The translations under genes were made by a program, and so were the position numbers. The notes under the pieces are model-generated. The model did no database searches, had not been told where the DNA came from, and saw only the letters and a program-made list of their open reading frames with translations. A stretch of 33,781 nucleotides of DNA from a virus: the IMG/VR virus record IMGVR_UViG_3300032288_003216, positions 1 to 33,781 of that record; one strand, 5' to 3'. Positions 16,936 through 25,023 of this stretch are shown here, piece by piece. Numbering within the stretch: position 1 is the first letter of the stretch; every line of letters begins with the position of its first letter.

Positions 16936-17232
16936 ATGACACTAACAATACAAAACATAAATAAGATATATAAGAGAGATGTAAGGGAATGGAGAATAGG
17001 TAAGATAGAAACCTTAAACGCAGTGTATCTAATAACCCTATATCAACCTAACGGAAACCGGTTACAAATAAATTTAGAAAGGATATCGAACATATATAAG
17101 AGTAAGAGGTGGGAAGTATGGCATTGGGATGAGAACGGAAAACCAAATAGTGTATATGTAGAGAGTACGGGATTAAGTACACCCGGCGATTTCCTTACTA
17201 TATTGCACCGATTATTAACACAAACACAATAA
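16936..17232 (+). CDS. Hypothetical protein, paralogue of 17425 gene
   Basis: 98 residues, strand-rich and basic. The layout 'LTI... EWRIGKI... YLITLYQP... LERIS... WEVWHWDENG... T' parallels the gene at 17425, which has the same length. The pair probably arose by duplication. Function unknown. A 47-base gap without clear signals precedes it. Confidence 0.7.
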   Translation: MTLTIQNINKIYKRDVREWRIGKIETLNAVYLITLYQPNGNRLQINLERISNIYKSKRWEVWHWDENGKPNSVYVESTGLSTPGDFLTILHRLLTQTQ

Positions 17233-17721: not shown

Positions 17722-18180
17722 ACCAATACCATATCAAAATAAATAATGTAGTGTGAATTTGTGGTAAAAAGTGGGGAATTGTGTTAAAGAGTGGTAACTA
17801 AAAGTATCTGTCAAAATAATTCTTTATATACTTACACACTACAATAAAACCAAAACACTATAAAAGTATATCAGTATGAAACCAAAAGTCCCACCTGCGT
17901 TCACATTGCAACAATTTTTTTCCTGTATGGGGATTTGCGGAGTAAGGGATTGCGCAGAGAGAGTGCCGCAAGTAGGGTGAGTGCGGTGAGTCGTGGTGAG
18001 TGGATTGCGCAGAGGTGAGATGAACTGAAATATTTTCACTCCAGTTTTTATCGCATATAACGGAAGCCAGGTCTACGTTCCCTGAAGATACGAAAAATAA
18101 TCGGTATTGCCAAATATAGACCTGGTCTGCGTTTCATTGAATAATTTTTATTTCGCACCGTGTCCGAATTAAAAAACATC
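17722..18180. other. Long gene-free stretch with tandem and inverted repeats
   Basis: No credible gene. It holds a 20-bp tandem repeat (TTGTGGTAAAAAGTGGGGAA at 17759-17778 and a 15/20 match at 17779-17798). These units sit inside an 8-bp inverted repeat (GTAGTGTG 17748-17755 with CACACTAC 17835-17842). A GC-rich patch has GGATTGCGCAGAG twice (17947-17959 and 18002-18014) and several GTGAG units. CCAGGTCTA at 18067-18075 is inverted as TAGACCTGG at 18117-18125, and part of this arm also recurs directly at 18121-18135. Candidate origin or structured RNA. Confidence 0.6.
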
Positions 18181-18194
18181 TAATAAAACCCTTG

Positions 18195-18505
18195 CATAAT
18201 TAATTGATTTTCAACGGATTAGCATAACTCGTTGATTTTCAGCCGGTTACACACGGTATATATAATATATTATGTTAAATAGGGAAAGGATTGAGTGTCA
18301 ACGAGTTATGCTCAAAAAAGCAATGTTTTACTGATATGTTATATTATGTTAAATAGGGTCCCACGCTCCAGCTGCGCAACTCGTTGATTGTCAGGCCTTT
18401 ATGCCGGTCCCCTTATATTCAAAGATTTTTTATTGACAATCAACGAGTTAGATGGATTAAGAAAAAAAATATGTATAAAGCATTGATTGTCAAGAAACTT
18501 TTTTT
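18195..18505. repeat. Second array of the 20-bp repeat
   Basis: Copies of the motif near CATAACTCGTTGATTGTCAA: 18195-18214 (+, 4 mismatches), 18223-18242 (+), 18291-18310 (-, diverged), 18378-18393 (+), 18434-18449 (-) and 18481-18494 (+) followed by AAACTTTTTTT. GCATAACTCGTTGA 18222-18235 pairs with 18298-18311, and 18378-18393 pairs perfectly over 16 bp with 18434-18449. A separate 19-bp direct repeat (TATATTATGTTAAATAGGG) occurs at 18266-18284 and 18340-18358. The same family is at 694-830. Confidence 0.85.
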
Positions 18506-21038: not shown

Positions 21039-21112
21039 GGTCGGATGGCGCAATTGGTTAGCGCAAGATGCTTATACCATCGAGGCTACGGGTTCGAGTC
21101 CCGTTCCGACCA
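21039..21112 (+). tRNA. tRNA-Ile (anticodon UAU)
   Basis: A complete cloverleaf: acceptor GGTCGGA/TCCGACC (21039-21045 and 21105-21111), D arm GCGC-loop-GCGC with GG in the loop, anticodon arm AGATG/CATCG with one A-G mismatch at its top, loop CTTATAC with anticodon TAT (21073-21075), T arm ACGGG/CCCGT with TTCGAGT. Discriminator A; CCA is not encoded. It would read AUA, abundant in this AT-rich genome, whereas most bacteria use a lysidine-modified CAU tRNA. Confidence 0.9.
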
Positions 21113-21136
21113 CTTAACAATTTAAAAACAAATAGT

Positions 21137-24061: not shown

Positions 24062-24169
24062 ATGGCAAGGAGAAAATCAAAACCAAAAGCAATGAGAAGT
24101 AGAAAATCCGGAGTGAAAACGGAAAAGAGAATAGCAAAAAATATTGAAGTTCTTAAAAAATATATGTAA
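24062..24169 (+). CDS. Tiny basic protein (35 aa)
   Basis: ATG 24062 reads MARRKSKPKAMRSRKSGVKT and ends VLKKYM at TAA 24167-24169, overlapping the next ATG (TAATG). About 40% Lys/Arg, suggesting DNA or RNA binding, possibly in condensing packaged DNA. It leads the module with the shared leader peptides. Coupling to the next gene supports it. Confidence 0.65.
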   Translation: MARRKSKPKAMRSRKSGVKTEKRIAKNIEVLKKYM

Positions 24170-24462
24170 TGATAAAGTTAAAAGATTTATTAAATGAGGG
24201 ACCAAAGGAAATGGTTTCCAAAATTGACAAGATAGCAAAAAAAGAATTGGGAAATAAAGTTTTCGCTAGTCATTTCAGAGATAATATCTATTTAGTATCT
24301 CCGGGTGGATTTTATTCACCTGTTAGGTTAAGACAAATGGCAGAAGATTTGTTAGATGTTTTCCCACCAGAAATGTTGGATAAGCCTGTTGGTGATTTAA
24401 AACCTATAAGAGTTGGAACGGGTGGAGCAACGGAAGGACAGATTATAATCAGATTAAAATAA
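24169..24462 (+). CDS. Protein with capsid-targeting-like leader (1 of 3)
   Basis: 97 residues. The start MIKLKDLLNE|GPKEM fits the short capsid-targeting peptides of T4-type internal proteins, in which a prohead protease cuts after (L/I)-x-E (here LNE). The rest is a basic alpha/beta domain (MVSKIDKIAKKELGN, NIYLVSPGGFYSPVRL). Two following genes share the leader, so packaging into the capsid is a reasonable inference. Confidence 0.72.
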   Translation: MIKLKDLLNEGPKEMVSKIDKIAKKELGNKVFASHFRDNIYLVSPGGFYSPVRLRQMAEDLLDVFPPEMLDKPVGDLKPIRVGTGGATEGQIIIRLK

Positions 24463-24469
24463 AATAAAG

Positions 24470-24826
24470 ATGATTAGGTTAAAATCATTATTAGAACAAG
24501 AAGAATCCAAAGTGGATAACAAAGAGTTTATAGAATTTTCTAAAAAGAGATTAGAAGGAGCAACAAAGATAGCAAACACCGCAAAAGAGAAAGGTGGACC
24601 GGCACTCTTAACATATAACCACTTTGTAGTTAAACTACCTTATTATCAGAACGCAGTTGATGGTGGATTTGATTGTAAGATGGCAGAAGTAGAATACGCA
24701 ACCCATTTGAATACCTTATGTGGTGTAATGGAAGCAGATGGTTTCGACCAAATTGAATTTCAGAAATTAGTTGGACTAATAGAGGTATTAGGTGAACTAA
24801 TAATCAAACACAAACAAAAGAAATGA
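24470..24826 (+). CDS. Protein with capsid-targeting-like leader (2 of 3)
   Basis: 118 residues. Starts MIRLKSLLEQEESK, the same leader with a possible cut after LLE or after the next glutamates. The rest is a soluble helical domain with VVKLPYYQNAVDGGFDCK and LNTLCGVMEADGFDQI. No known family. Overlaps the next gene by 4 bases. Confidence 0.72.
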   Translation: MIRLKSLLEQEESKVDNKEFIEFSKKRLEGATKIANTAKEKGGPALLTYNHFVVKLPYYQNAVDGGFDCKMAEVEYATHLNTLCGVMEADGFDQIEFQKLVGLIEVLGELIIKHKQKK

Positions 24827-25023
24827 TTAGATTAAAGGATATATTGAAAGAAGAAGCAGGACACGAAAACGATAGAGATATGGTAACAGGTGTGGCAGAG
24901 ATACTTAAAATGGTAACGGATATAAACAATAGAAAAGACATAGCAAACGTAATGATAGGAAAGTTCAGAAGTGAAAACGTTCTCTTCGATAAAGATGAAT
25001 TCCTAAAAATGTGTGGATGTTAA
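24823..25023 (+). CDS. Protein with capsid-targeting-like leader (3 of 3)
   Basis: 66 residues. Starts MIRLKDILKEEAGHEN, with a cut site after LKE. The rest is charged and helical (DMVTGVAEILKMVTDIN) and ends in a CGC-like CGC-free tail (MCGC is MC-G-C). Three genes in a row with the same first nine positions (I-K/R-L-K-x-L/I-L) make chance unlikely. Confidence 0.7.
   Translation: MIRLKDILKEEAGHENDRDMVTGVAEILKMVTDINNRKDIANVMIGKFRSENVLFDKDEFLKMCGC

Follow-up and report, generated by a model that had tools for sequence, protein, structure and literature searches.

Lineage-Specific Leaders on Unrelated Phage Proteins Suggest an Expanded T4-Type Capsid-Targeting System

Introduction

Why should three successive genes of an uncultivated virus, encoding proteins with unrelated bodies, begin almost alike? 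The locus lies in a 33.8-kb record, analyzed here at its full length and referred to as the window. In phage T4, the internal proteins IPI, IPII, IPIII, and Alt carry capsid-targeting sequences of 10–19 residues that are cut by gp21 (PMC9026906). Cleavage occurs after (L/I)-x-E, and mutational data for IPIII assign positions 4 and 7 of the leader to targeting and positions 8 and 10 to processing; the same work already suggests that T4-like phages bring varied proteins into their heads by means of such leaders (PMC9026906). In the giant phages phiKZ and SPN3US, a protease distantly related to gp21 removes N-terminal propeptides from head and ejection proteins, cutting after Glu (PMC5694885), but these propeptides are mostly longer than 100 residues, with (S/A)-x-E, whereas the leaders described here span ~10 residues, with (L/I)-x-E. 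No description of this tag, or of its expansion in such phages, was found in the open-access literature. An earlier note on this DNA had read the common start as a capsid-targeting-like leader, a reading supported by the same-start proteins and T4-type prohead protease that we found in relatives.

Three Adjacent Genes with a Common Leader

The three genes lie side by side on the plus strand within positions 24169–25023 and encode proteins of 97, 118, and 66 amino acids that start MIKLKDLLNEGPKE, MIRLKSLLEQEESK, and MIRLKDILKEEAGH, respectively. The 97-aa product (24169–24462, plus strand) is a basic orphan protein (pI 9.3) and candidate cargo, whose leader MIKLKDLLNE (24169–24198) is predicted to be cut after E10. 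The 118-aa product (24470–24826, plus strand), a conserved helical candidate cargo protein as judged from its relatives, their alignment, and an AF2 model, has the leader MIRLKSLLE (24470–24496), with a predicted cut after E9. The 66-aa product (24823–25023, plus strand), a modular candidate cargo protein recognized through its IMG/VR relatives, carries MIRLKDILKE (24823–24852), with a predicted cut after E10. The predicted boundaries are thus MIKLKDLLNE|G, MIRLKSLLE|QE, and MIRLKDILKE|E. The earlier note had described a common start pattern, an (L/I)-x-E site in each leader, and unrelated bodies, and all three observations hold: the ORFs are in place and the T4 IPIII register is enriched above chance; L-x-E occurs in every leader (LNE10|G, LLE9|Q, and LKE10|E), one residue early in the middle one; and an all-against-all blastp comparison of the bodies returned nothing significant. 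Pfam and PHROGs offered no convincing family for any of them.

A 35-aa, very basic, unlisted ORF (24062–24169, plus strand; pI 11.5; MARRKSKPKAMRSRKSGVKTEKRIAKNIEVLKKYM) lies directly upstream of the 97-aa gene, and its stop overlaps the start of that gene (TAATG); the 118-aa and 66-aa genes are likewise joined, stop to start, by ATGA. Because of these overlaps, the 35-aa ORF and the trio likely form one operon. The ORF itself is possibly a DNA-binding head protein made without a leader; tiny basic ORFs (35–47 aa, RSRKSGVK-like) occur in the same neighborhood of three related loci (L003, L005, and L115). Elsewhere in the window, which is otherwise densely coding, ~760 bases at 17722–18486 have no plausible plus-strand gene and no Rfam match, and a single tRNA-Ile gene (anticodon TAT) is found at 21039–21113.

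To count leaders, we used a register set beforehand from the published IPIII mutational data, M-x-x-hydrophobic-x-x-hydrophobic-(L/I)-x-E, since clustering of N-termini without the T4 rule also collects signal peptides and paralogous families. Among the 73 window genes scored, the exact register occurs in two, the 97-aa and 66-aa genes of the trio, whereas shuffling of N-termini predicts 0.10 (p = 0.002) and sampling of internal windows 0.05. All three leaders have hydrophobic residues at positions 4 (L) and 7 (L/I); the 118-aa leader keeps positions 4, 7, and 8, with Glu at 9 rather than 10. As controls, ~114 kb of T4 yielded four matches (IPII, IPIII, gp24, and 61.1; 0.27 expected), and no crAss001 gene matched. 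Most relatives of the window virus were likewise enriched for the register. The trio leaders differ at synonymous positions (ATA/ATT, TTA/TTG, and AAA/AAG) and the DNA upstream of them is dissimilar, so a recent DNA duplication is rejected as the source of their likeness.

A Conserved Body behind Diverging Leaders

The 118-aa protein has relatives at 38 IMG/VR loci, at locus L115, and in Flavobacterium phage immuto (vB_FspM_immuto_2-6A, NC_055915; gp082), the only cultivated relative found. Identity to the window protein is 46–89% pairwise, and the alignment contains many invariant body residues. Across lineages, the leaders are unlike, while the body is conserved in ~40 phage records. They include MIKFSDLLVE|S, MKNLIKKILKE|E, MKLIEMLNE|G, MKNQVKQFSEFINE|A, MDNYIKLYSDFLNE|G, MKYVITEDQLKKIVLNE|Q, and, in immuto, MRLLELLRE|A, the letters of which differ from those of the window; two lineages come close to T4, with FSEFINE|A and YSDFLNE|G versus YQEFIAE|A. 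Among the 29 distinct leaders of the family, which are mutually related and therefore not independent events, all 29 contain (L/I)-x-E (14.9 expected in shuffles) and 25 have the T4 spacing Phi-x-x-Phi-(L/I/V)-x-E (1.5 expected in shuffles).

The AF2 model of the 118-aa protein (pLDDT 88.8) has a confident helical domain from residue 18 onward, preceded by a poorly ordered, low-confidence leader and linker (residues 1–14, of which 1–3 and 9–14 fall below pLDDT 50); the model thus shows a disordered leader in front of a folded body. No solved structure matched this fold at E ≤ 0.001, and the sole viral match was an uncharacterised phage protein, 45% identical. In NC_055915, gp082 (104 aa) is annotated as a tRNA(Ile2) C34 agmatinyltransferase; we found nothing that supports this name.

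The other two proteins are distributed differently. The 66-aa protein has 28 IMG/VR relatives, in which its body lies directly behind MIKLSSLIKE-type leaders or forms the last module of longer leader proteins; at one locus (L115/G042), it adjoins the 118-aa family. At six loci (L122, L127, L130, L132, L133, and L136), the module follows zinc-ribbon (CDKCDWTWKISEG...CHKCG) or basic (PSAYANGWAAKNYK) modules, frequently with an I-K-E-V-E-V joint. Such fusions, read from sequence, suggest mosaic cargo built from small modules. The 97-aa protein has no relative in IMG/VR or INPHARED. In a tblastn search of phage records, the 118-aa family yielded immuto alone, and the 66-aa and 97-aa proteins yielded no match.

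The Leader Appears to Follow the Virus

Within a single relative of the window virus, one leader can stand on many unrelated proteins. In one genome (G023), MIKLxxIL.E introduces a P-loop/zeta-toxin-like kinase, a deoxyribonucleotidase, a Cys-rich protein, the 118-aa protein, and a 343-aa protein; a second genome (G033) resembles it in this respect, and a third (G042) has a leader of the same type on three proteins. G021 and G013 use M(K/R)NLI(K/R)KILKEE on many proteins, and G012 has a leader class of its own, I(L/I)TExQ. Counting the T4 spacing at any register with Glu at positions 9–14, we found 39 leader candidates in the 318-kb contig G021 (4.4 expected), 14 in G013 (1.4 expected), and 13 in immuto (1.9 expected), with no enrichment for this spacing in G012. 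Leaders of the 118-aa family are more similar to the leader on the best other body in their own virus (score 34.0) than to those of their orthologues in other viruses (21.8). Each lineage thus appears to have its own version of the leader, common to its cargo, and the leader would therefore follow the virus, not the body.

Further N-terminal patterns were observed in these genomes. A 268-aa leader protein of G021 (L082:2025–2828; G021 80025–80831) has a second, internal lineage leader (KSLIKKILKENEWEWAED) near residue 145, as though two cargo units were to be cut from one polyprotein. In immuto (L040–L043), unrelated proteins at 1803, 103806, 117631, 118632, 102294, and 113188 fall into two further N-terminal classes, MENFDLKKFLVENKL and MKKSQLRQIIKEAL, the latter also present on gp072, located between the portal and protease genes. 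In G050, ~16 diverged ~100-aa proteins starting MLTIEN are arranged in tandem (37344–53046), and the window genes at 16936 (MTLTIQNINKIY) and 17425 (MRLTIKEYGNI) resemble members of this family.

The deoxyribonucleotidase points to grafting. PHROG 2643 (5'-3' deoxyribonucleotidase) matches the G023 protein from residue 13 onward only. When the N-termini are aligned, G023 reads MIKLLDILKE|AEEQQYKIYCDMDG, immuto MKKVMGNLADLLLE|ESDFMPKYQIYCDMDG, Melnitz MKSIVEVTSINE|EELPELYCDMD, and HTVC008M ...LHLVQE|QDSLPTIYCDMDG, while homologues in Phosso (MPQIFCDFDG) and Cr30 (MVYKQLWLDCDG) are leaderless. A leader was thus apparently placed before an enzyme that other phages encode without one.

Bodies are also exchanged at the window's own locus. 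The corresponding locus in a close relative, L005, has a near-identical right flank (103-aa and 275-aa genes, 82–84% identical), with a 128-aa MISLIKLLE protein as the left neighbor of the 118-aa gene and a 264-aa MIKLIPLLE protein as the right cargo. In L003, MIKLKDLLLE introduces a 274-aa relative of the L005 264-aa protein. Close relatives therefore swap bodies while keeping a leader. The 274-aa protein (FHITS...STTTK) has no Pfam or PHROG match and a poor AF2 model (pLDDT 46), and we make no claim that it is an Alt-like ADP-ribosyltransferase.

Association with Prohead Genes

Further same-start proteins and a prohead protease were found in relatives, while the window fragment contains no leader genes beyond the trio, no S77 protease, and no other head genes; the closest contigs also have no S77 protease. 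Peptidase_S77, the family of T4 gp21, is encoded in 17 of 39 records with the 118-aa family and in five of 24 with the 66-aa family, mainly in long records, and T4-type gp23 in 16 of 18 relatives' records tested. Both are present in immuto (S77 protease, 6.9e-36; gp23, 1.6e-85). Leader genes also lie close to head genes: a 142–144-aa protein with MIKLKDLLKEE or MIKLKNILRE is encoded near the protease in G042 and G043, MIKLKxLLKEE occurs on a gene one gene away from a prohead protease, MIKLTNILKED adjoins a portal-like gene in G050 and G055, and immuto gp071, near the protease, has HFIAE|A. Several of the proteases themselves start with LLIE, like T4 gp21.

Interpretation and Alternatives

With the evidence from relatives being decisive, we consider it quite probable that these leaders belong to a capsid-targeting system of the T4 type that has undergone great expansion in giant phages. 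By analogy with T4, the amphipathic N-terminal stretch (Phi-x-x-Phi-(L/I)) would bind the prohead scaffold core and carry the protein into the prohead, where the S77 protease would cut after Glu and free the body within the head; cleavage at this residue is proposed because (L/I)-x-E is conserved and a gp21-type protease co-occurs. Together with the genome, the bodies would then pass into the host, in the manner of T4 internal proteins and Alt. The trio would represent a small, variable cargo cassette, composed of a conserved helical protein (118 aa), a modular one (66 aa), and an orphan (97 aa). We infer core binding, cleavage, retention in the head, ejection with DNA, and roles in host takeover or protection. 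Against this reading, the window contains no protease, the 118-aa leader has Glu at 9, and G012 lacks the spacing enrichment. In addition, the predicted P1' residues in two of three leaders are Q and E, whereas T4 commonly has Ala or Gly there.

The likeness to T4 internal proteins encompasses leader length, hydrophobic residues at 4 and 7, L/I at 8, and Glu at 10 (exact in two of the three window proteins), as well as small variable bodies and relatives with a gp21-family protease and gp23 capsid protein. The leader letters, however, are different (MIKLKDLLNE versus MKTYQEFIAE), and the bodies have no homology to IPI, IPII, IPIII, or Alt by Pfam, PHROG, tblastn of phage records, or the fold search with the 118-aa model. 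Another match is the propeptide of T4 gp24, MAKINELLRE|S, which is cleaved by gp21 and has nearly the same pattern as MIKLKDLLNE|G, although gp24 is a shell protein, unlike the candidate cargo here. Also unlike T4, the proposed system has lineage-specific tags, up to ~35 candidates per genome, modular or polyprotein-like cargo, and a conserved 118-aa core cargo protein.

Alternatively, most of the leader proteins may serve in the prohead core or in assembly, as T4 gp22, gp67, and gp68 do, being targeted and cut for head building and not for delivery. Some leader genes do sit within the prohead cluster, the 118-aa protein, more conserved than any other member, could belong to the core, and T4 IPIII also affects head assembly (PMC9026906). 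The bodies, however, vary strongly and are exchanged among close relatives, and some are enzymes, the deoxyribonucleotidase and zeta-toxin-like kinase among them; they therefore fit cargo better than scaffold, and we regard an assembly role as unlikely. Less likely still, with only a slim chance of being correct, is that the leader docks proteins to a non-prohead target, for example a replication compartment, a membrane, or a host protease. Many docking functions are conceivable for an amphipathic helix at the N-terminus, but this explanation sits poorly with the strict (L/I)-x-E in 29/29 orthologues of the 118-aa protein, the T4 register, the co-occurring gp21-type protease, and the leader genes beside it. 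Chance, or a translation-start effect of AT-rich codons (ATT, AAA, and TTA, at a local GC of ~33–39%), is largely refuted and very improbable, as same-composition shuffled N-termini rarely reach the observed counts, the crAss001 control has none, and the synonymous differences and dissimilar upstream DNA reject a translation-start effect.

Going beyond capsid targeting as such, we tentatively propose, at slightly less than even chances, that giant T4-type phages, probably of Bacteroidota, use lineage-own address tags to preload their heads with dozens of proteins, including enzymes, zinc-ribbon and basic modules, and some tag-separated polyproteins, so that, across a genome, the leader would point out the host-takeover proteins that are injected. 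A Bacteroidota host is likely for the window virus because the only cultivated relative infects Flavobacterium.

Significance

T4 heads are already loaded with proteins by a targeting tag. If our reading is right, heads that have diverged widely still obey the T4 targeting rule, and a ~10-residue tag allows many small phage genes that lack annotation to be predicted as virion cargo, along with the mature N-terminus of each product. A single virion proteome could then test what large phages inject besides DNA; none for immuto was found in the open-access literature. Lineage-specific tags could likewise be used to load proteins into the heads of Flavobacteria phages. The presence of the tag on up to ~35 unrelated proteins suggests that giant-phage heads carry a large protein payload in addition to DNA.
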